Shown here: positions 7,529-62,440 of the stretch, piece after piece
Position numbering within the stretch: the first letter of the stretch is position 1
Layout: every line of letters begins with the position of its first letter
Assembly: GCA_950295325.1 (NCBI GenBank)
Contig: OX485807.1
Coordinates: forward strand, 13,359,001 to 13,423,000
From: Polytrichum commune
Lineage: Eukaryota > Streptophyta > Polytrichopsida > Polytrichales > Polytrichaceae
Length of the DNA stretch: 64,000 bases
Direction: 5' to 3'
Notes under the pieces: generated by a model
The model's input: only the letters and a program-made list of their open reading frames with translations
Told to the model about the DNA's origin: nothing
Database searches by the model: none
Made by a program: the position numbers and the translations under genes

Positions 7529-9010
7529 TTAATCCTCTTCTGAATTAGATGCATCATGGTTACGAGGGAAGAGAAATTTCCCCTCCATCCTCAAATGTGC
7601 TTCCCAAAAAGATTTAGCTAGTAATTCATGTGTTTGTGTTGTTTGCACCAACAAGTTTTTAATCCTTGTTTCTTTGTCTTTTTTTGTTTCAACAATCTCC
7701 GCACTCTCATCTTCATCTTCATCTTCTTCTACATCTTCAAATGCATTTATCACAGTTTTTTCAAGGTCTTCAATTTGCATAGTTCTTGCTTCAACCTCGT
7801 CCATTTTCAAGTACCTCCTCATCTCTTTTGCAACTTGTGTAGCTGCCATAAATATATCTACATTTTCTAGCTGTCCAAGTTGACTTGTACTCTTTCTATG
7901 CATGATTATTTCTCCCTCTTTTGCCCATTCATCATCAAATTTGTCTCGGTATATTATGCACAAGTTGTGAAGACAAATGCAAGTAGTAACCAAATTGGAT
8001 ATATGTCGGAGAAGCATGTCAATTCTTTTCAATAGTATCCTCCACATTCCTTTCAATATGCCAAAATTTCTTTCTACTGCCATTCTTGTTGATGATTGGA
8101 TGAAATTCCAATGTGCCTTTGTTCTAGGTAATTCATTTTTTTCACCTTTGAAAGGAGAGTAGAACCATGGTTTCATTGGATAAGCAACATCACCCATAAG
8201 TTTGTAAGGTAATAACTCACATTTCATCATTTTTTTTCCCAATATCTGAATTTTAGAACAAAGTCCAATCATGGCAGCGCCCAGCCCATCTAAAATCGTA
8301 ATCCCAAAACCTACATTTGCTATCCACTACACCTTAAAGTAGAGCTGAATAGAAACCTTTTCTACAATAATATGAAGTAGGATCTATAGGAGGAGCAATG
8401 ATAGGTATATGACTACCATCAACCGCTCCAATTACATAAGATAATCCCTTAAGCTCCTCAAACTCGGCTGCAATTCTATTCAATGTAGCTTTAGATTGTT
8501 TCTCAATTACTAGTGGTTTTAAATGTTTCTCAATTATTGCACAAAACTCCCTTACAATGATAGATGCAGTGCTTTCATGAATTCCATAAGTTTCAGCACA
8601 ACCGCATAATGAATTACCACTACTAAGTCTATTAAAAGAAAGAACAATCCGGTTTCTAAGAGGAATGGATGCTCTGAAATTTGTATCCTTACGACTTAAT
8701 GATGGAGATAAGACACCGCACAAATAATCAAAAGTTTCGGGAAGTAACCTTGTATGTTGTTTGAATAACTTAACCGAGTAACATCCAAATAACAATATGT
8801 CCGCAAAAATAGTACTCCGGTCATACATCCAAATATTCCGTGTCCTCCTAGACAACTACTCTCCACAACCATCGTAGCAAAAACAATTGTCATGGCGGCA
8901 TAATGTTCATGCAAAGCAATTTTTTGCAAAATTGCAACAACCGCCATAACATGTCGCACGGCCATGAAGAACACAAGAGCAACTAAAATCTTCCGTCTAC
9001 GTTCATCCAT
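7529..9010 (-). pseudogene. PIF/Harbinger DDE transposase, frameshifted
   Basis: Read from an ATG at 9010 on the minus strand, three segments align to one transposase. The first (9010 to about 8850) is the N-terminus. The second (about 8855-8334) holds helix-turn-helix-like sequence and the first catalytic Asp in VIGAVDGSHIPI. The third (about 8272-7529) holds the second Asp in GDVAYP (usually GDSGYP) and the catalytic Glu in VERNFGILKGMWRIL. Breaks: a frameshift near 8850, a TAA at 8334-8336 (the frame continues after it as GVVDSKCRFWDYDF), and a frameshift near 8260. The enzyme family excises and reinserts the element at 3-bp targets. The C-terminal tail is acidic and then Lys-rich. All three acidic residues survive, so the gene was lost by breaks rather than active-site decay. 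Confidence 0.9.
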
Positions 9011-26428: not shown

Positions 26429-29190
26429 TATTTATTTATTTATTTATTTTGAGACAGAAGGCCAACGCAACCAACGCCAAATGAATTAACCAAGAACCAA
26501 GAAGATGCGAAATACCGCCACATAAAAGTAACAACGACCAACCACCAAGGACTACCCCCAACCCACCAACCAAGGACAACCCCCAGACCATCAAGAGGCC
26601 TCACCCAATTGCCACTCATCCTACCTACGTTGTCTCTTCCAGTTCCACTCAATATGTAACATGTAACATGTTTCATGTTACTTTTGCAAACAATTTCTTT
26701 TGCAAAGAACATGTCTAGCGCCTCACGTTTTGTCAAACCCTTGGAGCATGGCCATAGCAGAGAAGCTGCTAATTTTAATTTGTGCAAGAATCCGTTCCCA
26801 CACCGCCTTGGCGTAGAATAACGAGTTCATCCCAAATGCGTTGTTTGACCTTCGACTCATGCCAATGTTCATGGTTGAACATTTTGTCATTCCGCTCAAT
26901 CCAAATGGTCCACATAGTGATGCCCCTAAGAAGGTGCCAGATTTTGCTCTTTTTACTATACCTCTTAGGAATCCTTTCCCCAAATATTGCTTGCTTCCAG
27001 TTAAAACAATCATAGTTGCCAGACCTAACCCCACAGAGTTCGTGCATAATGTAAGTGGCCCATCTCCATGCCCTCCTAGCTTGGATACAGTCCCAAAATT
27101 TGTGTTCAATAGGCTTGCTCGTATTAGGGAGACAAAAGGGGCATTGTTTGGAAATGGACACTGGCGCAATGCGAGCCCTCCATTTGTTGACTGCCACCTC
27201 TTTGTGCCAAATTGACCACATGAAAGCAACTTCTTTCCCTGACCAAAGCGGGACCCAAAGTTGGGACCAGTAGAACTTGTAATTAGCAGGGAGATCACCT
27301 TGCCACTTTTCAACCGCACGTGTGGTTCCCGAAAACATGTTGATAACCGAGTCCCTTTCTAGCTTTGTGGTGTAGTCAAGGAAATGAGAGCCATCGATCC
27401 ATCTCCACCTATCTGGGTCCCACTCAAGTGTGGCCATTTTTCCATAGAAAAAGATAATTTGTTCCCTTACTCTTTCCTTTTTCGGGCCTCTAGTGGTATG
27501 AATGATTTTGACCTCATGGAAGAAACCCTCCCACTCTCTAAGGCATTAGGAGAGGCATGGAAAGGTTGTGCAGTTGCATACATAATTGTGGTGAAAAGTT
27601 GGTAATGCACTGCATGACAAAAGTAGGGTCCTCTCCCCATTAACATAAAATCCAAGCCATTGTCCCGGGTGGGTGGTGTCTAAATCATCTTCAATTTTGT
27701 GTCTCCATTGTTCCGCAATTTTACCCATAAGTTCTGTCCAATCTTTTAATTCCGTAGCAGTGAGGTTAAATTTCTCTCTAGCTCTATCCCAAATCAAAAA
27801 ATTCCCCTGATCACTGTCCCAAATATTGTCCATGCACTGGATTCCTTTGCGGTAAAGAGTTCAACTTTGATCATAGGTAAACCCTTTATTAATGAGTTCC
27901 ACAATATCCAACCACCAAATGCTCAAATGAAGTAATTTCATTCTCGTGCGAGGGGGAAGTTGATATGTGCCTTTTACCATCACTTTCCACGCTTTACTTA
28001 TGTGACTCCATATCCTTGACCATGTGGTACCTTGGTGTTGTTTGTTGGCGAACCAGTCAAGTCTAACTCCCCAACTTCTACCCCAATATGTACCTAAGGA
28101 TCAATTGAAGGTTGGATTCATTGGGTTTGATTGCTTTGACAATCCATTTGCACAAGAAACTAGTTTTGGCAATTTTTGGATCAACAAGTCCCAAGCCTCC
28201 GTATTTCTTTTTCATACAACATTCCTTTCACCCTAACTCTCGTCCATGTTAGTTGCTTCTTTCCTAACCAAAGATAGTTGCGGATGACAACTCTTATTTT
28301 CCTAGTATCTTATTAGATCCCCCCACACCGTGATTAAAAACCATAATGTGGATAGGAGTACCTGGTTGCATTAACCACTCACCATGTTAAATAAAGTTTC
28401 ATTGAGCTCCAGTAGTCAAGTTATTTGGAGATTTTGCTATATATGAACTAGTCTACATCAAGAGTACGAAGGTTGAGCCCAAATGGGGTACCCAAGAGCT
28501 TAGATAAGTCTCCTTCCTCTATCCATTGCATGTTGTATCCAGCAAGCCACTATGGCTTGTGCGTATACTTATCAAACCAATATGCGCAAGATTTCTCTCA
28601 GTTGATCTCCAGTCCAGATGTTGCGCTAAAGACATTAAGTAAGTGTACCAACTCATCAATGTACTTTTTCTCCCCTCTAACCATAAACGATGAGTCATCT
28701 ATGTATTGGGCAATGCTCTGTTGTTTTTTCCCCTTGGGAAAGTAATCCCTTTTAGTCTCCCTTCAATCACTGCTTTCTTAATGATATATGTGAGCACCTC
28801 CCCAACTATGAGGAAGAGGTATGGAGAAATTGAGCAACCTTTTCTTACCCCTCTCTCAATTTTGAAGTTGTTGCCCACCCTATTGTCGTATAGTGCCCCA
28901 TGCATTGTAACTAGCCTTGCATATTTGTGGGATAGTAAGATCCCTATTCCCCCTTTACATGTGGCATTAAAGTTGAGCCAACTTCTTTCTCCTGGAGTTG
29001 CTTCTAGGACCCAACTTGCACACCCCGGCATGAGTCTATGCCCCAAGTTATCTAAAGCCTTACCCCTTAATTTATGTTCTTGTATCATAATAATGTATGC
29101 CATTCGTGACAAGGAGTTGATAAAACCTCGTTCTTTTGAAATGCTTTCCGGGTCGTTGAGCCCCCATATATTATGTGTAAAAGGACCATA
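26429..29190 (-). mobile_element. LINE (L1-like non-LTR retrotransposon), internally deleted
   Basis: The minus strand carries, in order, an apurinic-type endonuclease start, reverse-transcriptase pieces, a connection region, zf-RVT, a 3' untranslated region (GGCCTTCTGTCTC) and a TTTA-unit tail (26428-26449 on plus). About half of a full ORF2 is missing, because the endonuclease passes directly into late RT motifs near 28870. It shares its 3' end with the copies at 17540 and 34925. The 5' end abuts a SINE. Confidence 0.88.
26775..29170 (-). pseudogene. LINE ORF2 remnants: endonuclease, RT, zf-RVT
   Basis: Endonuclease domain from about 29170: NIWGLNDPES then MAYIIMIQEHKL, the NIRGLN..QETK-type active-site start (Asn and Glu). 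At about 28870 it joins RT sequence RGVRKGCSISPYLFLIVGEV, and then QYIDDS at about 28692-28710, the catalytic YADD box with Ile for Ala. Near 28110-28210 the frame KKYGGLGLVDPKIAKTSFLC is the usual post-RT region. The longest clean frame (27437-26775, about 220 codons) is zf-RVT with CPFCLPNT and EHKFWDC. In life ORF2p nicks target DNA and reverse-transcribes the element RNA. Stops, frameshifts and the EN-RT deletion make this copy dead. Confidence 0.85.
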
Positions 29191-29192
29191 AA

Positions 29193-29405
29193 ATAGTCCT
29201 TTATTTATTGAACAATGTAAACTGCAATAGCTCAGGAAAATGGGTAGGAGCCGGCTGGTTGGTACAATTTTCCTGCCTTTAAATCACTAGCAACACCAAG
29301 TCATGTATAACACACTAAACATTCAGACGTAATCAACGGGAGTCGAACCCGGAACGTCTACATGCAGCTAAACATCCTCCCTCAACTAGCCAAGGAAACA
29401 TGACT
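29193..29405 (-). mobile_element. tRNA-derived SINE
   Basis: On the minus strand an A-box-like TGGCTAGTTGAGG (29392 to 29380) and a perfect B box GGTTCGACTCC (29349 to 29339) are spaced 30 bp apart, as in a tRNA gene. A non-tRNA body follows and ends in an AATAAATAAAGG tail near 29195. No folded acceptor stem is visible, so it is a SINE and not a tRNA gene. Its tail abuts the LINE start, which could mean insertion into the LINE or shared 3' machinery. Confidence 0.7.
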
Positions 29406-42000: not shown

Positions 42001-42115
42001 TGTTTTCTTAAATTTATGGGGGATGACAAGAGGAGGGCCAGGAAGTTTCACCCAACTTTTAAAACATGCTCCAACTTACAATGAGCTAACAAGCTTGTAA
42101 CACAAAATTGTTTCA
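42000..42115 (-). repeat. Dispersed family H, copy 3 (fragment, minus strand)
   Basis: Reverse-complemented, it reads AAAAGTTGGGTGAAACTTCC and CCCTCCTCTTGTCATC, matching the centre of copies 1 and 2. Confidence 0.5.
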
Positions 42116-42366
42116 AAGATACATTTGAATCCACAATTTCACCCCTCATTGAGCGACTTTACCAATCACTCTAATGTCTAAGTTAGGTTATGCACACAAA
42201 AGTTACATGCAAACTCGAACACACACACACTTCCATCTTGCAAGAAACATAGGCCAAATCCATTACATGTTTTTAAGTGGTTGACATGTACAAAATGAGA
42301 AGATTGAAGTACTTCACATACTTGTTGGATAGATACACGTATACAATAACACAAATTTACAACATG

Positions 42367-45300
42367 TCAATCGCTATTTGTTTGGGTGTCTCTTGTGGCC
42401 AACCGTGCAAGGGAGTAAGCTCCTACGCCTGCAATACCAAACAAAAGCAATCCCCGATTCAACATTTTTGTGTTTTTCAAAGCATGCGTGTGTTGGAGAC
42501 GTCCTAGTACTTCATGGGCAACTATGTTATTAAAGAACTTGGGTGAGTTTGAATGTATGAGCTCGTTGGGCTCCATCATACCTTCATGCGGCACGTCAAT
42601 TACCGAATATGATGATGATTGGCCTCTACTCGCTGCCAACTTTAGTTTTTTCAGTTCCGAGTGGACGGAGCGAAGGGTTTCCTTATCTTCAAGTGCTTGC
42701 TCTCTCAATCTTGCAAGTTCCTCGTCAATTATATTTTGTAAGTCATTTACATCTCTTGATGCTTTCAGTTTCAAGCGTTCGATCTCATCCTGAGTAAATC
42801 TCTTGTAAGCGTTCGCTGCATTGACTGCTTTTCTTAATTGTTCTTTTAGTTTAACGATTTCTCTCATTTGACTACTACTTTCGATTTTCGAAACTCTCTT
42901 CATATGATCAAGCTCACATTCCACCGAACCACCCATTTCTTGGGCCTTCGCCACCTCTATTTCTGCAAATTTCATGTTGTTTTGCATGCACTCATTGAGC
43001 TGTCGAATCTCGGACAACATTGTCGTTCTCTCGCACTCAGCGATGTCTTTTGTTTTCTCATATTGATACATCAAGCATTCGATCTTGTCTTGGGACTTTT
43101 GCAACTGCACTTGTGCCTCTCTCGCCAATCGATTGATTTGATCTTGCAGACACACAATTTGCTTCTGGAGCACTTTCTTCTCGTCCATCGCGACCTTCTT
43201 CGTAATCTCCACCATGGATATGGCCATCATATTCTTGCCTTCTTGTTTCTTCAGCTCGATTTGCGCGTCCAGTAACATTTTCTCCATGCATGATTTGGAT
43301 CCGTTGAATTTGTTTTGGAGAGTCGATAGTTTGAATTCGAGAGCATTTTTCCCTTCCTGAAGCTCCAGAACCGTTGTTTCGTAATTGTTTCTCTCGCAAT
43401 CCACTTGCATTCGCATACATTTGAGAGTGCTTTGCAGATCTTCAATTCTCTTCTCCTGCAAAAAAAAAGCAACTCAAAGATTTTCTAATTACCGTACTTT
43501 GATGTGTTAGATTGTTTGTGCATGTCCAATGAAACATGTATCATCAATTTGTTTCAATATTTTTGAGGAATTAGGCAATGTGTTATTTTGTTTTGACTCA
43601 TAACGTTCATGTTGACTTGACATATTTTATGTTGGTTTTTGAGAGTGAATACACTTTACAAAACCAATCCCAAAAATATTTCTCAATGATATTATAACGA
43701 TGCTTTTTTTTTCAAGCTTTATTCAATGATTGACCTAAGAAAACGCAACTCAATCCCTGGGTTATCAAAAAAATTACACCTTTTCATCCAACAAATTCTT
43801 GTGAAGAACATCTCTTGATTCCTTGTCTTGCTTCATTATTTGTAACACGCCTCTTAGGCAATCAATTTCTTCATGAAGCCTCTTCTTCTCTTTCTCCTCA
43901 ATTTTTTTGAAATTCTCAAGCATTTCGATCATTTCTTTCAAATCATCCCGTTCTTTTTTCAAGTTGATGGAGTTACTCCGGTTTACATCAGATTCTTCTT
44001 TTAATTTATGAGCTAGCATATCCTTCTCTTGCATTGTGCTCTGGAGGTTCTCCTTCAAACGTGCCACCTCAGCTGCATGCTTTCTTTTCTCTTCTATGTT
44101 TTCGTTTTGCAACGCCTCATACTTTCTGATGAGTTCGTCTCGTTCCTTTTTGAACTCGTCTCTTTCTTTTCCAAACGAATCTCTTTCTTTTTCCAAATCG
44201 GACCTCATTTCTTCGTATTGTTTCATTTGTTCCTTTAGTTTCTGAGCCATTTCATCTCTTTCTTGCTCCAACATGTGTAATTTTTCTTGAAGGGATTCCA
44301 ATTCTACAACATTTCTTTCTAGCAAACGAAGTTTCTCTTCAAGTTCGCCCCTCTCTTTCTCCAAATCCAATCTCCTCTTCTCACTCGCTTCTAGTTCACT
44401 TTGGAGTGTCACAAGCGCCCCTTCACTATTTTGCAACTTTGAAAGTTTTTCTTGGAGAGCGGCAAGTTCATCCGTGAGCCTATTCTTTCCCTCTTCTTCG
44501 ATCTTTCGTAGATTCCTAAGCTCATCCAATTCTTTTTGCATGTTGTCGTCTATTTGTTTGTCGGCGATTTCACTTGTATCTTTTGTCTCATCGCAAACCA
44601 AGTGTTGTGATTCATTATGTTTCTTCCAAAGACTTCCTACTGCCCAAATTTTGACATTCTTTTCATATCCAAATGACCATAACATCCAATCCACCTTCAA
44701 CATTGTCATCACCATCCTAAACCTCAAATCAACCCAAGGATAAAATGTTGAGACCTAGATTGCATGGTCCTTATTAAACCTCGCTATTTTTTCATCACTT
44801 GTTGTAAAAAACGGATGAGAAGTACCGTACTATGACCTTGACTTTAATAATTTATGAAATGAATGGATTTCGACCTTTAGAAGGCTCAAGGATCTTCACA
44901 TATTACTTCATGTAACTTACAGTGAGGATGACTAGGAGCACATTATGAAAGAGAAACTCGTTAAGTGCCAATCATAATTCGCATTCATGCGGTTGGCAAT
45001 TACTTCAAGCCCAATGACCTCCATGTGAAAATTTTGAGGTTTATACGACTTGCTAAACTCCTAAGTTTCTAAGAGCGCACAATCTACATGTACGGAATTA
45101 CTTAGCATGGTAAGGGTCGTGTTTTGTTGAAAAGGATTGATCTCATTAACTAGACGTTGGAAGAAAATGATACATAATTAAAGCAAAAAATCATAATCAA
45201 TCCAAAAATAACTAATGTGATATACATAGTCATAATTATGTTACATATATCATGTTCAACAAAACCAGTAATGTGAAAAGTCTCATCAACTATGTTTCTG

Positions 45301-48300
45301 ACGGTATTTTATAAATTTTATAGATATTATGATATATCAATTGCATGATTTATGAAAGATAGGGGCATACTTAAACATTTTGTTCTTTGGACAATGAAAA
45401 TCGGATTATGAACAAGAATGGGCAATGTAGTCATTGAGGACTATTACCATATGACAACAATGAATGAATTGGATGAAACTAACATCTATTGTCAATTTCT
45501 CCTCTAAAACCTTAGGGCCCCCTTTTGTACACTTATATTTTACTTCAAAATTCTTAATAACCTTTCAAAATGTACAACTAGAGAGAAATAATACCTCTCC
45601 CTTATTTATATTATGTACGCTAATGCCTCACACAGAACCCCTTCTTGCACTCATGTTACTTTGTAAATTGTATGAAGAGTTTGCCCCTGGGGATGGACCA
45701 AAACATCCACTTGGGCCTTTACCTAGACTACGATGGGTTTTTCCACTTGTAAGGTTTGATAGATAGATTGAAATGTATTAGTAGTGCGAGATTTGGCATT
45801 TTTACCCTCCTTGGTGACCGAGGTTGTAGAGCCGTGCATATGAGATGGCGTCCCAAACCATGATGGTTGAATCCGTTGCACTACTCCACACATGCACACC
45901 CGCCTCCATAATGCCCACGACATGCCCCTTGTGGCCTTTGATCACTTGCTTCAACGATGAGTCCGCCATAGCCCACACACGGATTGTTTTATCTTCACCG
46001 CCACTCCACATTGTATCGCTTCCAACTTGACAAAGCACCAAAACCGGAAGCGTGTGACCTGTTTTCTTAACATATACATTGTTAAGTGGGAATAATTTAT
46101 AAACAAGATTTCCAATCATTTTGAGAGGAATATATGGAATATTTCTCAAATTAGTGAAGAAAAGCCGAAAGATCACAACATGTAACTAGTTGCACTTGGT
46201 AATACAACAAGGGTTTTGACCAGTTATGTTCAATTATCTCTCCGGATACTTCAGTGGGAATACCTTTGTTTTCTTTCCTTGGGAATAGTGATTGATCTTA
46301 GTTGGATGCACTTTGATTGTAGACTAAAAGTGCAAGACACATAATCTTGACTCACTTTGAGCCTAAATTTGAAGAGAATGAGTAGGTTTTGCTAGGTTTA
46401 GAAAGAGAATAAGTTTTTATAAGCTAAATAATATCATGAATGCAAGTTGTTGGAACACTCACTGAAAGCTACATGGTCATAGTATGCCTATAAATACCAC
46501 TGGCATTAAACTATAATTATAAAAAAATCTAGAATATGCACCTAGGATACCTTAAATTTGTTAAACTCATTATATCTAGTTACACCTTTGATTGTGTTGT
46601 AATGAAGTCCCCAATGTCATCATTTAATGTGTGCTCTACACATGAATGGGAAATGACCAACATTGTGAGCGTATTTAGGTTCATCTTGGGTATCACTAAA
46701 GGTATGTTTATGGGTATAGAATTCGAGACCCGGGTAGTATCACATTCTTCAACACAAATTTTATTATCCACTTAATACTTGCATAATTCTAAAGTATCCC
46801 CAAAATCCTCTCGAATCCTCAAGATGAGGGGTAATGTAAAGGTGCTTTCATATTGGGGTATGAGGTGAAAGAAATTCTATCATCAAGTCACCTTTATAGG
46901 CTAAGAGCAAAATTTTGGACACAAGGAGTTGCTAATGGGGTCCAAGTTTGAAAGCATGAGAAAGATTTTTTGCTGAAAGAATTTTTGAAGTCTCTCAAAA
47001 ACTCATGACTTGGTTGGGATGTTTGGTGCACTCTTGGCAATTCATAATGTTTAAGGATTGTTAAAGTGGTGTCGTTAACCCCAATTTTAGTTCATGGGAG
47101 GGGAGGCATTAAGACGGATGGCAAAAAATGAACTCCTTATCAAACTTTTGAGAGCACTAAACTTTTAGGTGTCTTCAAAAGTTGGCCATAAAATTCATCT
47201 TCTGGCCAAATTCAAGCACATACCCTTCATTCCAATAACATTAGGGGTTATGAAACCACTTTGACACTCCTTTAACATTATTAAATGTCAAAATTGTGCC
47301 AAAACTTCCTACCAAAATCATGAGTTTTTGAGACACTTTAGAAATAACTCTAATACGACATCAATCTCTGAATCATATTATTGGCCTTGAATCAAGAAAA
47401 TGCTTCTCCTAAATTGAGAAACCAATCTTCAAGCTTGGATCTAGTGTTGAGTCCAAAATAAATGTTTTGGACAACACATTTCTAAATTGGACTTGAATCT
47501 TAAGCTAAATTCACCCTAGATGATCCATATGAACCTTGTGCAACATGCAATTTAATAATTTGTTACCATCACCCAATCTCCATACCCTTTGGATAAAAAG
47601 TGTCCCAAGGAAAGTCCAAAGAAAGCAAAGCTAACCGGAACATATCTTCACTTCACCCAAAGGCTCATGTTCTTCAACATTGTCAACATAAGTGCAATGT
47701 GCCACTAAGGATTCGTTGGAGGAACTCCATACTTCTATCTCTTTTGATCCCATGTCTTCTTTCACAATCCGGAGACACCTCACGGCACTATGATGATGAG
47801 AATATCCAAACAAAAGATCTCCTTGTAGACTCCATTTTCGTATCTCAAAGTCCATTCCTCCTACCATACAACAAGTAGATTAGTGCATTTCAATGGTTTC
47901 ACAATGCGTTCACCATGGGATGAGGAAAAAGGCATGTCGGTCACACCCTAATGAATAGGGTAGCTTACCTCTTCCATAGCATGATAAATATAGGGTGAAA
48001 GATTATGTCACATAAAGTCCTTTAATGTTGGTTCTAGGGAATTGCTAAATCGACCATGTAGTTTGTTGAATCGACCACACAGATGCGTTGCCCGGTCACA
48101 TGACCTATCACAATTTGATTTTCCATTGCACACATGAAGAGGAGCAAGGCATTAGCTTTGTGTTAGATTTGATGAACTTGGCCAACTTGGGTGTTAATTC
48201 ACAGCCTAGTCGACATCTTACATATTGACTGTGGTCGTTTTAACCAATGTGTGGTCGATTTAACAATCCCCTAGTTATATACATCATTTTATTAGTAGAT

Positions 48301-50307
48301 ATCAGTCATCTTGAGTAATAAGGTTTGGAGAAGAGCAAATCTTTCACCCATTCCATAGCACTAAGGGTCCACTAAGGGCAACACCCTTTGGCTGCCATGT
48401 GGCATGCCCCGCTTAATGGGCACCATTACGCAAGGTTCAAGAATCCTCATCACGTTTTCAACTAGAAAGTGTTGTTGTTTGTCATAGGAACCCTTACCGT
48501 GCACTTAATATGTTGATCCATATTACTACAAGAGTGGTTACAAGTTAGTTTGTGAATGATTTATGATTAGTGTATAAGTTCCAAAATATTTCATGAAGGA
48601 TAATGGTCCAATACATAATGTTCACCAGACCATATGGTATTGGTCCCCATTACTATGCTTAAAACTCCTCCCGGATGCGCCCTCCACCGTTTTGGAACGG
48701 TTTTGTTTTCAAGCTTCAAGATGGTAATATCACCGTTCGCAAACCCAAGCCATAGCTCGGTGTTCTCAATGGTTTCATGGAGTACGTTGATCGGCTCCTT
48801 CATGTCATGAAACACCTCATTCGTTGCACTCTGCAATCCCAACACTTGACCTTGTTTACTTTTCCCCTTTTGTGCACCTTGAGATGAATCTCATTAGTTG
48901 CGCAAGTGACAAGTGTGGTGTTTATAAGTGATTCAAAAGTTAAAAAGTGAAATCATTGTGAGGAAATGGGTTTGTTTCAAGCATGGGAATAAATAGATTC
49001 CCACTACGATTTGTAGGCTTGAGATAGAATTCTTGCTAGACTTGTGCAAAACTCCTTATCACATGTGGATTTATGATGTGGCCTTTATAGTTCGTTGTAA
49101 TGCAACAAGCATATGTAAGAGACATAACTTTAGCATTAATAGAATCAAAGAAATGTTCATGTATTTTCGCTACCTTGATGTCCCATTGTGTGACGATTCC
49201 TTTCCGATTGGCTGAGAATAAAGTCTTGCCGGTGTACGTTGCACTCCTCACTCCTTTTGGTATTGTTGCTAAGCATGTCACTGCACCCACCAACAAGTCA
49301 ACATCCTAACCACTGGATAATTGTAGAATACATTAATTTATGAATGACTCCAAATGTGATTTTTATGGCGTAGTGTAACATGGTATTCATGAAAATGTCA
49401 TACATGTCATTTTCTTGAATGCAAGGAAGGCCAGATTGAATAGTCTTTGAAGGTAACTTTTGCCGACTACAACTTTTGCCAATTGCAATTTTTTCCAAAG
49501 TTCAAGTGCATTCCACAAGACTAGAAACTAAGTAGGCCTTGAAAGAAATCGTCAGATGTGGATGCGACGTTTTCATGAACACTATGTTGTTTAAAGAAAC
49601 TTGATATCAATTTGAAACCAATTCAAAAAGTCATGTGCTTGAATAATAATGTATCATTTTATGGCCATTGAGTGGACCGAGCCAAGCAGTAGGGGCAAAC
49701 CTTGTCTAACATATTTTTCATCAAGAAAAATATATAAACATCAAGTAAAATTTTGTAGACAATTTGGTTTATAGGAGATTTTATGAGTGAATTATACGTG
49801 CTTGGTTGTATGCTTTGCCACAAGAAAACTCTGCATGGAGGGCATAACCTCTTTATTGGACATAATCTCTTCCCGATGGAAATTATGAATAAGATTATAT
49901 GAATGTCAAGACATACCTTCTAGATTTAGTTTTGTTGGTGTTTTCCCTCGATATGATTTCTGGCTTGTAATTAGTATCGTATCACTTTGCCTTCGTAGTC
50001 TTGTTGTTGGTGAAGCACTAATGCTTTCCCTTGTTGTGGGCGAAGTAATACTTTGTCTTGCTGTGGATGAAATGAAGCTTTGTCTTGTTGTGGGTGAAGA
50101 AATCTTTTGACTTGTTGTGGGCGAAGAAACACTTTGTCTTGTTGTGGGCGTAGAAGCACTTTGTCTTGCTGTGGGCGTAGAAACACTTTGTCTTGCTGTG
50201 GGCGAAGAAATGGATTCACTTGCTGTGGGTGAAGAAATACTTTGTCTTCTTGTGGGTGAAGTGATACTTTCTCGTGGCGAAACCGTGATGCTTTGTCTCG
50301 TTGCCAT
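42367..50307 (-). CDS. Tail-anchored WD40/coiled-coil protein with SP-repeat N-terminus
   Basis: Seven exons, transcribed right to left: 50307-49917, 49280-49174, 48830-48626, 47860-47657, 46058-45806, 44716-43780, 43455-42367. All junctions are GT..AG and the phases close to 1062 codons, a strong internal check. Residues 1-110 are about 11 nonapeptides (RQSISSPTT type). Residues 131 to about 410 are WD40 blades (VTQWDIK; LWLGFANGDITILKLE; MWSGGEDKTIRVWAM; HVWSSATDSTIMVWDA; MLWSFGYEKNVKIW). Residues about 410-1000 are heptad-rich coiled coil (DLEKERGELEEKLRLLE). Residues about 1034-1052 (GLLLFGIAGVGAYSLARLA) form one membrane segment before a nine-residue tail. This predicts a cytosolic scaffold or tether anchored by its C-terminus. 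The start is the ATG at 50307; an in-frame stop lies 13 codons upstream. The propeller style resembles that of plant type II inositol 5-phosphatases, but no phosphatase domain is present. Function is unknown. Confidence 0.88.
46110..46246 (+). repeat. Dispersed ~215-bp family, copy 5, inside a WD40-gene intron
   Basis: This is the 3' part of the family (CATTTTGAGAGGAATATATG, GAAGAAAAGCCGAAAGATCA, then ACATGTAACTAGTTGCACTT, ending ATCTCTCCGG). It lies just upstream of exon 5, antisense to the gene, about 50 bp from the splice acceptor. Confidence 0.75.
49990..50300 (-). repeat. Coding 27-bp minisatellite (Ser/Pro nonapeptides)
   Basis: About eleven 27-bp units in exon 1 of the WD40 gene. Each encodes a variant of RQS-I/V-S-S/T-P-T-T/A. 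Every unit offers an Arg-Gln-Ser and a Ser/Thr-Pro site. The frame is kept throughout, so unit number can change without breaking the protein. Confidence 0.9.
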
Positions 50308-50343
50308 TGGCACTAACTTATGTTTCGAATCACATGTTATCAA

Positions 50344-51280
50344 TTAGGTTTTTGTCGCATACTTGACTCTTCATGCTTTCATCATAATATAATCCAACAA
50401 CACTTAGCATGGGTTTGAAACCAACACAAATTAAGTATGATGCTTGAATAAAGGTGTTGTGATGTTAAGAATTTCATGATGTTCAGCCCGATTATGAAAG
50501 GATGGTCGTGGTTTTGACCTTAATAAAATAAACCATCAAGACATCATCACGATTGACATCTATGTAGTAACTTGAAATGGAAGAGGGAATACTCGACCCA
50601 TGTTGCGTAGTGATATATGGTGATATACCAAAATTAAAGAACAAATCATTTGAGCATTGATACAAGTTCGTACTTGAAAGAGTTGTGCGATCTCCAATCA
50701 GTTTTCTAACTTTTGCGTGTCAACTTGGAGTAAACACAAAAAGGAGAATCATGAATTTCTCCATTTTCCTATGTAGATTTTCCGGTTTTTTGGCTGTGAT
50801 TAATTCATTCTTTAAAAGCTCTAAGAAGTTGAAAGTGTTTGCTTGGACATTGTAAGGAGGTGACATGACTATCTCCTCATGGAGATGATCCATATCTAGG
50901 GCAATCCATATTCATTGGGTTTTCTTGTTGGAGGCATTGAAATTCTTGAGAGTTAGTTGAGTGGTTTCATCGCCATTGCTAAATGAAATATTGTGTCGGG
51001 TTTAATTAGTGCACGGAAGCTAGTAATTCTTCCGGGGTTTAGAAACAACGTGGAGTTAAGAAATTACGGCATTCACTTATTTGCAAACCTAGTTTCAAAA
51101 TGTAGAAATTCTATCACCACCAAGGGACAAATTCCTAGGGTTAGGGTTTAGTCTTTGAGAGAGTGTGACTGTGAGGAAGCCCACTCAAACAACTCTTGGA
51201 CACCAATTGAAGAAAGTAACCAATCAAAGGTCTATAAATTTCGCTCTAACCCTTAAAGATCTAAGAGGCTCAATGTACAA
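50344..51280. other. Upstream flank of the WD40 gene
   Basis: Expected to hold its promoter and 5' leader. No convincing TATA box or coding frame could be assigned by eye. Confidence 0.4.
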
Positions 51281-54132: not shown

Positions 54133-54384
54133 GAATAATTTGGCTTTAAAATATATGGGTCTTACATGGTAACCTTTTTCAGTCACACCACTTGTCTCAA
54201 GATACAAAACACACAATTAGTACAAAGTGGTTAGCAAATCCAAACCAAGGCCTTAGCCACTTTCCCCATCTTTTGGGGAGCTCATGTGAATATCTTATTT
54301 CATTATCGAAGTGAAGATTCTCGTCTTCATCAAATAGTCATGTAGGCCCCAAACTATGTTTGATTATTGAACACATAATGCTTA

Positions 54385-55233
54385 GGGTGAATTTCCATGT
54401 AGGCCGCTTGTGCACCATATTCTAGTGGGAATAAGGACAAACATAGATGGAATATGGTGTGGTGGTGTTCGTATGTGCCAACCAACTATTGTTGTTTCAA
54501 TTGTTTAGTGGCTCAAGGCCACAACCCTCCACATTCTAGAGTAGAGTCACCCATAACCGATCACTTAAGAGATTATGCGCCACATCTGGAGAAGTAAAAG
54601 GCAATGCAAATTTTTTCCCGTGTAGGAAGATAGAAATTAGGAGGACTGCAAATTTTTCAGTAATTATATTCCTTAAATTAAAATTACTAAATTTTTTATG
54701 AAGCCAAAAGTTAGCCCAAACACTACTAAGGTCTAGAGTCTATCAAAACTGCTCTTTTTGAGGCAAATTCCTCCTCACTTTAGCACTCAAAATAATCGAC
54801 ATGTGTCATGGCACTATCAATTCCATGGTGATACCATAACCAAAGTTGGAGACTTAGGGTTAGTTTCCATGTAGGCCACTTCGCCCACCATATTCTAGTG
54901 GAAATGTAGATTCCACCCTATGGAATCTACATTTCCACGAGAATATGGTGGACGAAGCGGCCTACATGAAAACTAACCCTTAGAAACCGTGAAACCTGGA
55001 GCCTTATTTTAATCACCCACCAAAAGAAACTATTGAAATCAGTCCCGACGTAATCAAAATTATGGCACCCTATAGAATCCCAACAGGGTCTTGATTGGGA
55101 ATGGGCGCCTCTACTCTAGTAGACCACCCAAATATGGTTGGTTGGTTCCTCTTGTTTATCTTCAATGAGAACACTTCCAAACCATTTAGTATCTAGAATC
55201 TAGTGGGCAAGAGGCCTACATGAAAACTCACCC
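54385..55233. mobile_element. MITE family E, larger copy with a nested hairpin copy
   Basis: Left end GGGTGAATTTCCATGTAGGC and reversed right end GGGTGAGTTTTCATGTAGGC. Both continue with a CTAGTGG motif. Two ends of the same family bound the inner hairpin at 54857-54979, so a smaller relative seems to have inserted into a larger one. Confidence 0.65.
54857..54979. mobile_element. 123-bp hairpin MITE, TSD TTA
   Basis: Nearly the whole element is an inverted repeat: GGGTTAGTTTCCATGTAGGC, ACTTCGCCCACCATATTCTA, then AAATGTAGATTCCA is mirrored back to the end. Perfect TTA flanks (54854-54856, 54980-54982). The structure would transcribe into a long hairpin. Confidence 0.85.
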
Positions 55234-55829
55234 TAAGCAATCTTGAACAACCAGTCCAGTCTCTTTTAAACACGCATCTTTTGGGTATCCATTCTTGTAG
55301 CTACACCTAACCACATATCACTCAATTACAGGGTGTTCGGTTACACTAAGTAACTGAATTAGGCACATCTTCCTTATAATCAAAACGTGGACATGAGTTG
55401 TACGAATGCGATGGGCTTGAACAATCTGATAGAGTACGACACCCAATTGGATGGATGTTGGCGAGTAGTTTCAACTCATGCACTTTGACAACCTTCAATG
55501 GTAGTTTTTGTATTCGAGAATCGCTAGAAAAACCTGTGAACAAGAAGCTTGCACAGCTACAGACTTACCACACTTGTTCGACTCCGTTTCTCCCGTGATG
55601 GTATGCATAATGCTTGGGCTCAAACTTGTCTCCAATTTTTTTTGGGGTTTAACGTGTAAAGTAGATGCATAATAATTGTTCTGCATTAATAAACTGAAGT
55701 GGAATAAAGCATGAATCGAATTGCGTGGGGTGGAAAAGATGATGACATTCGCAATTTTTCTGCACAAATTGGAATTACCCTACCTTCTCAACAGTTTGTA
55801 ACTTGGACAATGTCCAGGAAGGTTTCTGG

Positions 55830-56040
55830 ATGCTATCAGTCGAGATCCGAGTGTTTCCAAGTCCAACCGGTTACATGTTGTGCGATCTTTTGGTTTTCCT
55901 TCAGTAATTTGAGGTATATTCCACAGATTCCTCCAAAACGATGGGTAATTTTTTTTCCTGCGGTCTTGAACCTTCAACCGGTTATTTCTCAAACTCAAGC
56001 GGTGCATCTGTAAGTAGCGGCTGGTTCTCCCCGTTCATTG
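55830..56040 (-). repeat. Dispersed ~215-bp family, copy 6 (minus strand)
   Basis: Reverse-complemented, it starts CAATGAACGGGGAGAACCAG and runs through GGTTGAAGGTTCAAGACCGC and AACCGGTTGGACTTGGAAAC. Confidence 0.8.
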
Positions 56041-56303
56041 AACTTGGAAGAAGGGATTTATTTTCATGGTGGAATCTTGTGTGACAAGTTATGCCATTCC
56101 AAAGCACAGAAAGGCAGGACGTTAAAGAAAAAAATTGGGCATCATGCTATTTCATGCTGTCATTACCGTGTGCTGGCAAGAGATTCTGGCAAACCAGAAA
56201 ACTGGGGCAGAATATGTTCGACAACACCATTGATTTAATAATGATCATCCATGTGCAAAGATGTGTGGCAGTCCAAACAAGAGCCCACATGTGGTGCTTG
56301 TGC

Positions 56304-56311
56304 TATAAATA
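56304..56311 (+). promoter_or_regulatory. Candidate TATA box of the Elongin-B-like gene
   Basis: TATAAATA in the context GCTATAAATAGG, about 460 bp upstream of the conserved coding sequence. If used, transcription would begin near 56335-56345, leaving room for a leader exon that supplies the missing start codon. Confidence 0.4.
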
Positions 56312-56759
56312 GGATCCACAGCGCTTGGTGATCTCACACATAATGAATGTGCCAGATTGAAGAGTGCAAACACGGTCAAGCAATAGAACAAAATTAAAAG
56401 CTGGGAATGCAGTAAATGTAGTGTGGAATGCGAAGAATGAAAGCTAGCTAGCTATTGCGTTAACTTAAACCGTTGGCAGGATGGGTGGAATCAATCAGGA
56501 GACAAGAATCACACAGTCGCTATAATTGTCTCTGTGGACTCCGGGTGGCGACATAATGCATGTCAGAAATCCTGCGTATATGGACAACAACCCCCGAAAA
56601 CATTAACCTGTCGCGTTTTTATGCGAGTGCTCGTTTTAAGTCACAGCATTGAAGCGGCGCTTCCATACTCCTCGAATTCGTGGTGTAGCTTTGCTTTACC
56701 CTAGCCTGCATCGATTGACTCGCCTCACCTCGCAATCTCAAGCACTCGTGAAATTTCAT

Positions 56760-58593
56760 GTGCAGACGATTTTCATCAGAGTGAAACGTAAAAAGACTAC
56801 ATACTTCTTGGAGTTGGAGCCCACAGACACGATTTTGGAAGCGAAGCAGAAGCTCCAGGCACTGAGTGACGTGCCTGTGGATAAGCAACGGCTCGTTCTC
56901 ATGAAAGATGGACCAACTGTATTGCAGGAAGCCAAAAGCCTTGCTGAACAGCGGGTGCGTTTTCCTCTCCCCTTCATGTATCACAATTTTTTTTTTTTAA
57001 AAACAGAGGAAAAAGAAAAGAAAAGAAAAGAAAAAGTTGGTAAGCAATTCTTGTACGAATGCAATGCCATAAGAATGAGAACACTGAAGAGACATGTGTT
57101 ACGATGACTCTCTGTGAAAATTTGAAGAGGAGGAGATGAATCTTCACTTTGATCTCTTGAAACATGTGCATCTCAACTTCAATATGCAAACTTGAGATGT
57201 CAATTGATCTTCATGATTTGCAATTGTGAATAGAATGAGGCATATTTCGGTTCAACCCAAATGTCAAGAGTTGTATGTGGTGTTGGAAGTGACCACGATA
57301 GGACCACAAAAATTTCTCATGATTTTCATATATGAAGTCTACGGAACATTGAGTTGTTTGTCGGACCTAGTTTCACAATATGCATGTCCTGTTTTTCTCT
57401 TCAATTGTTTGATATCACTAAGTTTTTAATATGTTAGTGACATTGTCTGTTATGACTGACTTCAACCACTTCCCGTAGATTGATATGCTAGTCATGTCAA
57501 TGTGACAAAATGTCAATTTGTGGTGAATGTCCTAGGAGCCACTACAAAGCATGTGAGTCCTAGGCAACTGGCGTATATCACTAGAACTTGTCCTATGTAA
57601 TTGAAAAAAATTACTTATCTAGCATAGTGGTAGATTTGCATTGTTCTTCCATTGACATGGGTTGATCACATAGGACTCATATGCTAGTAGTGAACGGTTA
57701 TGAAGTGGTTACATACATGTGCACAAAGTGGATATTGTTGAACAATTGTTTAGCATTGACCTTTTGTCTATCTCAACCAATGAGCAGCCGTACCAATCCT
57801 TAAAATAAAATCAGTAGTGTTTGTATTATGAGTTTATCAAACCAAATTACACCCAAAAGTAGGTATTTGAATAAGGTTGATGTTTGCATAATGCATGTCC
57901 ATAGAAAATACTTTACATGGTACGTGTTTCTTCAACATTCCTACCAAAGTTTTTTGTTGAGATATATACCTTGGTAGGTCATGGGTCATTGAGGACCTCG
58001 ATCGATGTGTCCTTCCAAAATTAACTATCAACACAATGTAGCCACTGTAGATGACACATTTTTGGATATCCATGTTTCTTTTATTATAGAAATTGGATAA
58101 ATTAAAGGGTCATTCTAGAATCCAAGAACCTGAAACACACCTCAGTCCTCTACAGTGAAAACAAAGTATAGGACAAAGGCTTTGAAACAACAACTTTAAA
58201 ACCCTGTACAGTACAACTTGTATATATACATTGGTCTAGTTTTTGTTCACCAAGTAATAGATTAACCACAATGATATGAGCAATTAGGTTGCCATTACAG
58301 ATAATAATGAATAATGAATAGTGTGGAACCTCGATAAATTGGCATGGACCAACGGAATTGTAATTAGTTTAATAATGTGATTACTGATTATTGATTAATT
58401 AACGTAATCAGTATAGCAGTACAGTAGTTTGAGAATTATTTACTGCTACACTGATTACATTGTTTAATTAATCACTTTAATTTCAGTGTAGCAGTAAATA
58501 ATGTGACTTAATGAGGGAATTCATGTGCAGGTTGAGAATGATGCAGTGGTGGCTTTGACACTCAAACAGAAAGGTACAGGATGCTCTTTATAA
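56760..58593 (+). CDS. Elongin-B-like ubiquitin-fold protein, start not visible
   Basis: Exon 56760-56954 reads QTIFIRVKRKKTTYFLELEP then TDTILEAKQKLQALSDVPVD and KQRLVL, ending CGG|GTGCGT. After a 1576-bp intron, exon 58531 onward reads VENDAVVALTLKQK. This is the ubiquitin-like fold of Elongin B, partner of Elongin C in cullin ubiquitin ligases and of transcription-elongation factor Elongin; the KRKKTTYF and VENDAVVALTL blocks are typical of plant members. Two oddities. Where family members begin Met-Gln-Thr, the frame reads Val-Gln-Thr (GTG), with an out-of-frame ATG overlapping; no in-frame ATG exists back to the stop at 56637. CATGTGCAG could be a splice acceptor of an unseen first exon. 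The end KGTGCSL (stop 58591-58593) is shorter than usual, so a further exon after AAAG|GTACAG is possible. Confidence 0.8.
58376..58490. repeat. Imperfect palindrome (CAGTRTAGCAGTA), intronic
   Basis: AATCAGTATAGCAGTA is mirrored by TACTGCTACACTGATTAC, and ATTGATTAATTAACGT by TGTTTAATTAATCAC. A further GTGTAGCAGTAAATAATGTG follows at 58483. It lies 40-150 bp before the second Elongin-B-like exon and is probably a small MITE. Confidence 0.55.
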
Positions 58594-58686
58594 CTCCTGC
58601 CAAGAAATTAAACCTGGTCTCCGAATCCTGCACTGAATTGTAATGTAATGTTGAGCCTTCTACATACTTGGTTGTATACAACAAAC

Positions 58687-58906
58687 AGGGAGAACTGACA
58701 ACTAGTTACAGATGAGCCGGTCGAGTTTGAGAAATAACTGGTTGAAGTTGTAGTTGAAGACTTCGTGAAAATTACCGATCATTTTAGAGGAATTTAAAAA
58801 AGAATATACCCAAATTAGTAAAGAAAAACCCAAAAGATGTCAACATTTAACCGGTTGGACTTGGCAACACTAGCATCTCGACCGATTATTGTCCCAAAAC
58901 TCCATG
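58687..58906 (+). repeat. Dispersed ~215-bp family, copy 7
   Basis: AGGGAGAACTGACAACTAGT, GAGCCGGTCGAGTTTGAGAA, ACCGGTTGGACTTGGCAACA, ending AAAACTCCATGG. Full length with a diverged 3' end. Confidence 0.8.
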
Positions 58907-59517
58907 GATGTTGGTTTTATGACAATGTATTCAAGGGCATCACCAACCTTGATTTTCAAGGTAGGCCTACTCGGGAAATCAAATTTTATATAGTGCATAT
59001 TTTTTCAGGAGAAATGTAACTTTCCATATATGACCTAGGCTTTTAGGTGGACCTTCGGGCCTAGGGTAGGCTTGGCCTACCCATGCCTAGGCCTGGCGAC
59101 GCCCCTGAACATATTCGACTAAGATAATTCAATTGAAAGATACTCATGCCAATACTATGGAGCATTGGTTCCTTACCACTGGTTCTTTTCCACTATATGG
59201 GTTTTAGGGTTTGCTAATATAATAGATTTTCAAGTCATATTCAAAGATTTCAAAATCGTCTAGTGGAAGAGAAGCAATGGTAATGGACCGCAATTCCCGT
59301 GGTGTGGATTCATCTGCACAAGATTAATGATGGTATGGCCAAGGATAGAGATTCGAGAGTTAGGGACAACAATAGAGATTTTAGGCCCGTGACCATTGAA
59401 ATGGAATGAAATGGATTTGAAGTCCATGAACCCCCAAAGGTTTATTAAGAGATTAGAAATACATCAAGATGGTGTCAAAAAGGCCAATTCACTAGAGAAA
59501 TGGATTGTACACATTTT

Positions 59518-59716
59518 GTCTAATTAGTGTGGGTTACCATTTGGAGTTACACATTGCTATAGCACTTTACCAAGAGTGTCATTTTTTACCGAAACAACAT
59601 AAGTAGTTAGTGTGCACACCGAAGAATATTGTATAACTCGACTGTTAAAAAGCAATAATGTTAGTAGAAAGTTATAACAATGCGTAACTCCAAATGTTAA
59701 CCCACACTCATTAGAC
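59518..59716. mobile_element. MITE family B, copy 5 (cleanest, 199 bp)
   Basis: Left GTCTAATTAGTGTGGGTTAC then CATTTGGAGTTACACATTGC is mirrored base for base with few changes by GCGTAACTCCAAATGTTAAC then CCACACTCATTAGAC. The inverted repeats are about 50 bp each. Confidence 0.8.
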
Positions 59717-60668
59717 CAAAAAAATATAGTGGTCTTAGTAAAGATATAGGCTAATATCAACTTCATGGTCCAATTGGAAGATAAACTTTGGACTACCTAG
59801 TACTACATTCTGCAATTGGGAAGGGAACCTATTCCTAATGAACCTATCTCCATTGAAATCTAAAATCTCTCATTGGTGGACATGTTCCCCCTTCCCTGCA
59901 CATTGTAGCTTGAGGGCCTACGAGACCAAGAAAGTTTGAATGAATAATCACCTACATGAAGTCCTACATAACTCGTAATGGAGAATGGTTCATGGTCTAC
60001 TAGATTTTACATAATGCCTCACCTCAAAGAGGCAGGTCTAACACAAACGCAAGAGATCATGACACTTCAAAATTACACAACCCTTGCTTTATTATAACCC
60101 CAAGGTGTGCACTATTCATTAAAACCAAGCATCACGTGCGTGCATGCCCCTTATTAAAATACCCCTGTATACATTTTATTTTTGCTAAAATCAAGCAATA
60201 TACTTACAAATCTCATTGCTTCAAAATACATTTCCATACATACACAAGGGTCCAAAAACAAATACAAAAATTGTATATAACATGTGTACAAATGTTTGGA
60301 AATGCAAAAATATGGCCCTATTATATGTATAATATCAAATCATGGATTTTTAGTTATAAAGTCGTTACTTAGTGGATGAAAAAACACATGATTCTTGGTC
60401 CAGGTCTAACTTGAACGCGTAAACGTGTAAATGCGTACTTTACATATATTTTTCTATAGCCTCATGTATATCTACTTCTTGCTTAATAGAAATATGTCTC
60501 TTGTACGTACATTTTGTACATGCTTGTTTTAAATAATACCCCTTTTGTGCACCCACGTGTATAAATACAGTACTTGAACAGTGCACTCCCTGGGATTATA
60601 ACCTATTGTGTGAAAGGCCACACGTAATAAGATGATAGTGAAATAGGATTCGGTTGAGATCCCAACCG
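59717..60668. other. Intergenic DNA, no gene seen
   Basis: No supported coding sequence or complete element. A few GAGGGCCTACGAGACC-like words near 59912 resemble MITE interiors. Confidence 0.4.
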
Positions 60669-60669
60669 C

Positions 60670-60803
60670 ATATGCCTTTTCACTACACTTGAAGGCCCAT
60701 GACCACACAAGATTACAATCCAATTTATCACGCAATTATGAGTTTCAAGGGCCCTCACAATTTCCCGGTTATGACCCTTGGCCATAGTGTAAAAGAGGCC
60801 CTT
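60670..60803. mobile_element. Small Harbinger-like MITE (about 130 bp)
   Basis: Left GCCTTTTCACTACACTTGAA then GGCCCATGACC, mirrored by GGTTATGACCCTTGGCCATA then GTGTAAAAGAGGCCC. The ends follow the GGGCC..TTACACTA pattern of the larger elements. Confidence 0.6.
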
Positions 60804-61050
60804 AAACTATTGCTTTTGCAGGCCCACGTAATGAAGAAACAGGAATCGAACCTGAATTCTGGGAGGAGGTCAACATCCATGAACCCGAAGACCCAACTTC
60901 GGTGTTCTTTAAACAACTATGAAGATTGTATGGAATCGAGTTATTTGCTTGTGAATTTTTACCATGAACAAATGTACTTTCATTCCACAAGCTTGTAATG
61001 AATCACACAACCTGTTGAGTAACAATTCTTGGGTGATCTATGTGCACAAC

Positions 61051-61304
61051 ATAAGAGGGAGAGAGGGAATTATTGTATATGAGCGTACTCTCATCCTTCC
61101 AACATGAAAACTTGACCCCTTATAGATTTGTTGTCGATTCATCTCCAATGACTTTGGGTAGACTACTTCAAGGTCTTCAAAGCTAACTCTGGTGTCAAAT
61201 CAATCAAAAAACATAATTTCCAAGCTCCATATTATTTCAAAGATTTTATGTTGGATGAAAAGAAAGATATGCTTGTATGCAGAAAATTCTTCTCTCCACA
61301 TAAG
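61051..61304. mobile_element. MITE family D, copy 2
   Basis: GGAGAGAGGGAATTATTGTA then GAGCGTACTCTCATCCTTCC parallels copy 1 at 23313. The right end is more diverged (TGGATGAAAAGAAAGATATG, TTCTTCTCTCCACAT). Confidence 0.7.
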
Positions 61305-61392
61305 AGTGATCAAGGTTGTGTTAAATTACAAGAAACTTGCACACATTAGAGCATCCCACACCCTTTGCCCCACATTGAAAGTGTTGTAACAA

Positions 61393-62440
61393 TGTATCTA
61401 CCATATTAAGGTAAGTGTGCCTAATTTGGTTACTTATCTTGATCAAACACCTACATTTGAGTGGTGGGTGCTTCTAGGTGCAAATCTAAGAACGGACACT
61501 AAACATACAGGTGTCTAAAAGAGATTGAACTACGTGCTCAATTTTTTTTTCACCATTCTATGAGCTCAATAGGCAACATAATCGAGGGAACTTGTATGGC
61601 CTTCTTATGGCTCACTGTATGTGGACTTTGATGATTCACATCAATTTGAGATTAGCTCCAAAACTTTCCAGAGCTAGTCTTGGCTTCTTCATATACATTT
61701 GCAAATGCACAAAAATTCCAACATTGCGATTCCGAGTAGTATATATAATAATAAGGTAGCAAACAACAACTAGTAACCAAATAAAGGCCACCTACCTTGG
61801 GATATATTCACTTTCCCCGTAAAGGAAACAAAAGAAAACAATCTAGAAACGATATAACAAGGTATGATCTGGGTAGTTATAAAATTTTACCAGTCTAAGC
61901 TTACAAAATGGCTACTCTTTGTGGGTCCGTCATATATGATCATCTACACATATAGCCTAACTAAACTATCGCAAACAACTCCCAACAGCTCTTCATTTTT
62001 GTAAAGACAGGTCTTCCGTTTACCTGAAATTGCAGAAGCCAAAAGAACGCCGCTGAATCTTCGAATCACAAGCTTAAACCCATCTAAGGTAAGCAGGCCT
62101 AATCTGGTTCCTCGTCTTAAACGGACACCTACATTTGAGTGGTCACTATGGTTGGGTCTGGACATAAGACATGTGTTGAGAAGAGATCGGACTACATGCT
62201 CATAGTTTGTTAAGCATTCTAGACACTGTTATTGCGGGGACTATTATACAATCATTCAATAACTCAGAGACTCCTCACTTTGACAATTCATATGGGCTCC
62301 AAAACTCATGAGGGAAATGTGGCTGCAGTCACGATTTGGACTCACTAATCATCTTGCACTAATCGTGCATTTCATATCCTACAAGATAGACAGTGGGTCC
62401 AGCGAGGAAAAGTGTCCGTTTAAGGACCCAACCCCACCCC
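61393..62440. repeat. Repeat family F: two tandem-like diverged copies
   Basis: AAGGTAAGTGTGCCTAATTT, ACACCTACATTTGAGTGG, then AGAGATTGAACTACGTGCTC (61409-61540) recurs at 62090-62210 as AAGGTAAGCAGGCCTAATCT, ACACCTACATTTGAGTGG, AGAGATCGGACTACATGCTC. A fragment is also at 21318. In the second copy TTAAACGGACACC (about 62120) faces GTGTCCGTTTAAGG (about 62412), suggesting a terminal-inverted-repeat element. Confidence 0.55.

Follow-up and report, generated by a model that had tools for sequence, protein, structure and literature searches.

A probable WD40 propeller–coiled-coil gene and its neighbouring paralog in the moss Polytrichum commune

A 64,000-nt stretch of the Polytrichum commune genome (assembly GCA_950295325.1, contig OX485807.1, positions 13,359,001 to 13,423,000; hereafter the window, whose numbering is used below unless a contig is named) carries, on its minus strand, open frames in which a WD40 propeller is followed by a long coiled coil. 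Do these parts belong to one gene, and if so, what kind of protein would it encode? Our answer to the first question is that the propeller and the coiled coil very probably form one conserved gene, because a paralog repeats the exon layout, amino-acid change between the two copies appears constrained and the last blade runs directly into the coil. As to the second, the explanation we favour, and consider probable, is a protein-coding gene with two family members found in the genome, whose propeller and coiled coil would likely make up a dimeric scaffold or spacer.

Gene model and paralog

The gene runs from 50307 to 42367 on the minus strand. Its seven GT–AG exons (3,192 nt; Table 1) close in phase without an internal stop and, in the paralog-guided model, predict a protein of 1,063 residues with WD40-like blades at residues 131–419 (seven by eye), a coiled coil at about 448–975 and, after a linker, a hydrophobic stretch at 1036–1054. 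Exons 6 and 7 lie in frames that are open over 326 and 368 codons from stop to stop, compared with a longest frame of 208 codons in 300 first-order Markov simulations of positions 42001–50400, which served as a control for chance. The first-pass annotation, made from the sequence of the window, had likewise joined seven exons in phase and placed a coiled coil behind the propeller; both points stand, the union in one gene now being backed by the paralog, and its figures of 1061 residues for the protein and about 600 for the coil become 1,063 and about 530. Two junctions were discarded on the way. An in-frame exon-3 acceptor at 48866, which yielded a 1,075-residue version of the model, gave way to 48830, chosen for its fit to the exon of the paralog, and an exon-2 acceptor at 49305 was dropped for want of a phase-0 donor in 49895–50000 at the end of exon 1. 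Rfam and transfer RNA scans of the window returned no matches.

The propeller, also claimed in the first-pass annotation, was amply borne out. Searching the PDB with it returned 249 distinct sequences at an expect value (E) ≤0.01, the best of the 60 matches listed being an entry named Tako8 (E = 2.5e-21), and a two-sequence profile returned 274 distinct sequences at E ≤0.001. At E ≤1 the whole protein matched 14 Pfam families, each of them a WD40 or beta-propeller model. The single-repeat model PF00400 stayed below its cut-off of 27 in both copies (22–25 bits in the window protein, 26.6 in the paralog), from which we conclude that the repeats have diverged. As judged from these matches, the predicted protein is a WD40-repeat protein. 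It does not reach the cut-off of the top-scoring Pfam model, the first propeller of WDR3/UTP12 (63.5–68.9 bits against a cut-off of 154), and no family matched it over its full length in Pfam or in the PDB, where matches were confined to the propeller; plant proteomes were not among the sets searched.

The paralog lies outside the window, on the same strand and about 37 to 42 kb upstream of the window gene, a range that depends on where the paralog ends, as its gene model covers the propeller and the start of the coil. It was found as four propeller matches at C5:13452608–13454019 when the window propeller was searched against its own assembly (407.8 Mb, 64 contigs): of 13 matches at E ≤0.01, five were to the gene itself, four to the paralog and four to other WD40 genes. 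The reverse search with the paralog propeller gave 14 matches (five self, four to the window gene, five elsewhere). Neither search revealed a third family member, although matching was exon by exon and the counts are lower bounds. The two propellers are identical at 148 of 287 aligned residues (52%); exon 5 gave the best paralog match, with 58% identity over residues 315–400 in the numbering of the 1,075-residue version (tblastn E = 6.5e-29). The propeller exons measure 107, 208, 204 and 253 nt in the paralog and 107, 205, 204 and 253 nt in the window gene, and both copies share the entry phases 1, 0, 1, 1 and 2. Codon positions 1, 2 and 3 are identical between the copies in 183, 223 and 144 of 287 cases. 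Nonsynonymous and synonymous divergence by the Nei–Gojobori method (dN 0.36, dS 1.42) gives a ratio of about 0.25, a rough figure, averaged across the two copies, as dS is close to saturation. On this codon comparison, amino-acid change between the two copies is constrained. Furthermore, in both genes the exon that holds the last blade continues into the charged helical sequence that starts the coiled coil, which speaks against two genes having been misjoined.

Two features of this comparison weigh against our reading: the near-saturated dS just mentioned, and the way in which the exon boundaries were set. The window gene guided the choice, by eye, of the paralog junctions, and the paralog in turn guided that of the exon-3 acceptor in the window gene. 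Since the junctions on each side were picked with the other copy in view, their agreement is supportive and not fully independent.

Table 1. Coordinates of the proposed exons and of the tandem array in the window; a slash marks a splice junction.
Feature	Positions	Strand	Description
Exon 1 (proposed)	49917–50307	-	ATG at 50307; nine to ten Ser/Pro/Thr/Arg nonapeptides within residues 1–130; donor GAAG/GTATGT, phase 1
27-bp tandem array encoding nonapeptides	49998–50270	-	Tandem Repeats Finder: 10 copies, 78% matches, score 260
Exon 2	49174–49280	-	First WD40 blade segment, from residue 131; 107 nt and entry phase 1, both as in paralog
Exon 3	48626–48830	-	WD40 blades 2–3 (LWLGFANG...WRAH); acceptor TTGCAG/AGTGC, picked via paralog alignment
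Exon 4	47657–47860	-	WD40 blades 3–4; 204 nt, length and phase equal to paralog's
Exon 5	45806–46058	-	WD40 blades 5–6; 253 nt, length and phase equal to paralog's
Exon 6	43780–44722	-	Last WD40 blade and directly adjoining coiled coil, one open exon
Exon 7	42367–43455	-	Remaining coiled coil, linker, C-terminal hydrophobic segment (residues 1036–1054), stop

Coiled coil and the two ends of the protein

Coiled-coil character over about 530 residues was judged from periodicity and the absence of proline. Hydrophobic periodicity peaks at 3.5 over residues 460–990, and no proline occurs in the 551 residues from 450 to 1000 (both in the numbering of the 1,075-residue version), so that we predict a long coiled coil as in the golgin or PICC type. 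Counting the other way, nine 60-residue blocks of the coil peak at 3.5 (four of nine), 3.6 (four) and 3.3 (one), and the coil contains 11 glycines; an uneven or interrupted coil would therefore fit as well. A single-sequence AlphaFold model of exon 7 (mean predicted local distance difference test score, pLDDT, of 65.6) consists of helices up to exon residue 276, with pLDDT <50 from residue 275 on. Exon 7 had no match in the PDB at E ≤0.01. NCBIfam, searched with exons 6 and 7 only, returned nothing for exon 7 and, for exon 6, weak matches to six models of ATPases, most of them of SMC or Rad50 type, at scores far below their cut-offs. We dropped a Pfam YABBY match of exon 7 (12.4 bits) and matches of the paralog coil to the HIP1 clathrin-binding (14.9 bits) and DUF1664 (11.6 bits) models, all of them far below cut-off. 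The coiled coil of the paralog runs on across additional exons, towards a Ser/Arg-rich stretch. This Ser/Arg/Pro-rich stretch, on the C-terminal side of the paralog (C5:13446651–13448081, minus strand), lies within 477 open codons; the two copies carry their low-complexity regions at opposite ends.

The C-terminus bears on the rival that survives best, itself a special case of the explanation we favour. The protein might be an organelle-anchored tether, with the coil as spacer and the propeller as distal hook, much like a tail-anchored golgin or PICC/PICL, a proposal that we regard as possible, if doubtful. Residues 1036–1054 are more hydrophobic than any other stretch of the protein (the next best 19-residue stretch averages 0.87), flanked by arginine and 12 residues from the end. 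Their Kyte–Doolittle mean is borderline, at 1.55 over 19 residues, under the 1.6 that a membrane segment of this length is usually asked to reach, and 1.16 over 21 residues. In the exon 7 model the segment appears as a low-confidence helix, with pLDDT <50. The three frames inspected on the C-terminal side of the paralog, whose gene model is incomplete, showed no similar anchor. Long coiled-coil proteins with tail anchors have precedents among golgins (PMC4707255) and in plant PICC/PICL (PMC3581476), as described in the excerpts of both papers. All in all, the C-terminal membrane segment of the first-pass annotation could not be confirmed.

Nor could the serine/proline-rich nonapeptide exon that it had placed at the other end of the protein. 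Exon 1, the weakest part of the gene model, was proposed from an ATG, a 145-codon stop-to-stop frame, a good donor and its phase. The head that it would encode has a net charge of +13 and eleven serine/threonine-proline (S/T-P) sites, and an idealised nonapeptide query matched only this array in the genome, as two overlapping rows. Nine aligned repeat units, however, differ pairwise 113, 39 and 68 times at codon positions 1, 2 and 3; without a third-position excess, nothing points to selection on this frame, and the array is open in other reading frames as well. Furthermore, the 10,243 bases upstream of paralog exon 2 contain no relative of exon 1. In the 24-kb paralog region, exon 1 found low-complexity downstream matches only; the best of them, obtained without composition correction, fell in the Ser/Arg-rich part (E = 3.6e-5). 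Among 180 open frames upstream of window exon 2, 15 matched the stretch upstream of the paralog, none of them starting in 49281–50400. Exon 2 of the paralog is likewise entered in phase 1, which makes an upstream coding exon in both genes, or a split ATG in the paralog, likely. The basic head is no more than a candidate for a regulatory region. Between window positions 54236–62339 and the region upstream of the paralog, we observed 13 DNA matches (66–90% identity, 35 to 290 bp), which are probably dispersed repeats.

Relatives of the propeller

The only Pfam model whose cut-off was reached is PF23754 (IP5PC-F; cut-off 27), with 27.0 bits for the 1,075-residue version, 35.2 for its residues 1–430, 34.0 for the window propeller and 36.9 for that of the paralog. 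The gene could on this basis derive from FRA3/IP5PC-F, with the phosphatase lost and the product acting as a non-catalytic partner in phosphoinositide signalling, which we consider unlikely. The type II inositol polyphosphate 5-phosphatases (FRA3, At5PTase12–14) do resemble the window protein in their N-terminal WD40 propeller, the PF23754 cut-off being reached here at 34–37 bits. Four Arabidopsis members with N-terminal WD40 domains are listed in the excerpted part of a 5-phosphatase survey (PMC6562803). Where the window protein has its coiled coil, FRA3 has a phosphatase domain.

Comparisons within the genome pointed in both directions. Of the five matches that PF23754 had in the genome (E ≤0.01), four fell at the FRA3-like locus and the fifth at the paralog, with no exon of the window gene among them. 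By hhalign, the FRA3-like gene ranked first of seven in-genome comparators (48.8, next 45.6), the match covering propeller columns 25–129 (blades 1–3) and including an LWxGFANG...WRAH stretch common to both; by blastp, the window propeller scored slightly higher with another WD40 gene, L008 (42.7 bits), and with a WDR5-like gene (36.6) than with the FRA3-like one (36.2). L005–L012 served as WD40 controls; the hhalign and blastp comparison left out L005 and L010 and used L006 and L009 trimmed to their WD40 parts, and the Pfam control left out L010. The FRA3-like locus was not returned by the genome search with either propeller (E ≤0.01), and exons of a true IP5PC-F member score 119 and 102 bits, far above the window gene and its paralog. 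The phosphatase domain PF22669, present at the FRA3-like locus, is not among the 14 Pfam families of the window protein. PF23754 itself appeared for none of the seven control genes among the best 25 families listed per protein, yet at least four of these seven (L007, L008, L011 and L012) pass the 27–28-bit cut-offs of IFT140, IFT122 or WDR19, indicating that such low cut-offs are loose. We read these four as not being IFT proteins, and a Pfam CDC20 model backs this for L012. With loose cut-offs and a blastp ranking that does not favour FRA3, we rejected the passed cut-off as proof of FRA3/IP5PC-F identity: membership of that family is not supported, and a distant kinship is possible from the sequence comparisons. 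A census of WD40 genes in the genome, in which 150 of 573 candidates were scored, gave no placement of the gene either. The FRA3-like gene of this genome, L004 (C5:50799800–50808799), has an IP5PC-F propeller and Exo_endo_phos2 exons.

Other known systems share part of the architecture. The fungal mitochondrial fission adaptors Mdv1 and Caf4 combine the same two parts in the opposite order, the coiled coil preceding the WD40 propeller. The decapping scaffold VARICOSE/EDC4 has a WD40 domain followed by a long helical region; its model was not among the Pfam matches of the whole protein. Golgin models were likewise absent from the Pfam matches of the whole protein and of exon 7. The golgins giantin, golgin-84 and CASP are alike in outline, with a coiled-coil rod and a C-terminal anchor; golgins attach via the C-terminus, some by a transmembrane domain, and differ in that no WD40 propeller is described for them in the excerpted text (PMC4707255). 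Plant PICC/PICL, which are tail-anchored, share the long coiled coil and the C-terminal hydrophobic segment, a transmembrane domain in their case; as far as the excerpt goes, they are predominantly coiled coil, have no propeller described and have orthologs exclusively in vascular plants (PMC3581476). The main text of a coiled-coil survey of 22 proteomes does not contain WD40, WD-40 or WD repeat (PMC1322226). No tail-anchored WD40–coiled-coil plant protein was named in the literature among the matches listed, which is weak evidence given the partial coverage. The statement in the first-pass annotation that the arrangement matches no named plant family accordingly holds for Pfam, the PDB, NCBIfam (exons 6 and 7) and this literature, plant proteomes lying outside the search.

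Possible roles and neighbouring features

What might such a protein do? Scaffolds that combine a propeller and a coiled coil are organisers of organelles, cilia and signalling elsewhere among eukaryotes. The window protein is most simply read as a scaffold or spacer. Through its coiled coil, two chains would dimerise into a rod about 80 nm long (530 residues at the textbook value of 0.15 nm per residue), and the propellers, at one end of the rod, would offer a docking face to a protein partner. If the basic, S/T-P-rich head is part of the protein, it could be phosphorylated and serve as a regulatory or cytoskeleton-binding extension. At the far end of the rod, the short hydrophobic tail may provide membrane attachment, perhaps only in this copy; this step is optional and unproven. 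A dimeric scaffold is thus the most likely role, and a membrane-tethered one is possible, both being inferred from sequence. Of what the first-pass annotation proposed, the union of propeller and coiled coil was upheld; the membrane-tether role that it suggested would depend on a borderline tail, and the head has no independent support.

We also considered that the gene might encode a sperm-flagellum or basal-body protein, which seems improbable. Mosses have swimming sperm, the combination of propeller and coiled coil is common among ciliary proteins, and the window protein matches the second propeller of WDR90/POC16 weakly (22.2–30.2 bits against a cut-off of 60). In keeping with a moss, the plastid psaA and psaB of contig C8 match PDB entry 8htu best and 6l35 next, with 7ksq in third place for psaB; these are Physcomitrium photosystem I entries. 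No ciliary family, on the other hand, was matched at its own Pfam cut-off, and axonemal WD40 proteins often have two propellers. Similarly speculative is a bryophyte-lineage tether family without a named plant counterpart, built from a WD40 propeller and a golgin-like rod, in which one local duplicate gained a membrane anchor and a phosphorylatable S/T-P head and the other kept a soluble, Ser/Arg-rich tail; we think this unlikely to be the case. Finally, a decaying duplicate with frames open by chance, or two misjoined adjacent genes, would suit the local duplication, the repeat DNA common to the upstream surroundings of both copies and the unsupported first exon, but is very unlikely in view of two fully open exons of >310 codons, matching junctions, a dN/dS well below 1 and a single exon holding the last blade and the coiled-coil start in both copies.

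The locus, then, holds a real gene with a real core architecture and uncertain ends. Its interest lies in an unassigned scaffold family and not in a proven new kind of tether: a conserved gene pair that matches no named family in the sets searched would be a ready knock-out target in a moss. Should the tail indeed anchor the protein, the gene would encode a membrane tether of plants whose hook is a WD40 propeller; should it be soluble, an ordinary scaffold.

Elsewhere in the window, an open frame upstream of the gene, on the plus strand at 56640–57104, contains a ubiquitin-family domain (PF00240, 33.3 bits, cut-off 25.4). An open frame at 28702–29283 on the minus strand resembles, by eye, the endonuclease of a long interspersed nuclear element (LINE), with no Pfam match at E ≤0.001. 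A transposase fragment at 7532–8326, also on the minus strand, matches DDE_Tnp_4 (PF13359, 50.6 bits) and is presumably of the Harbinger type.

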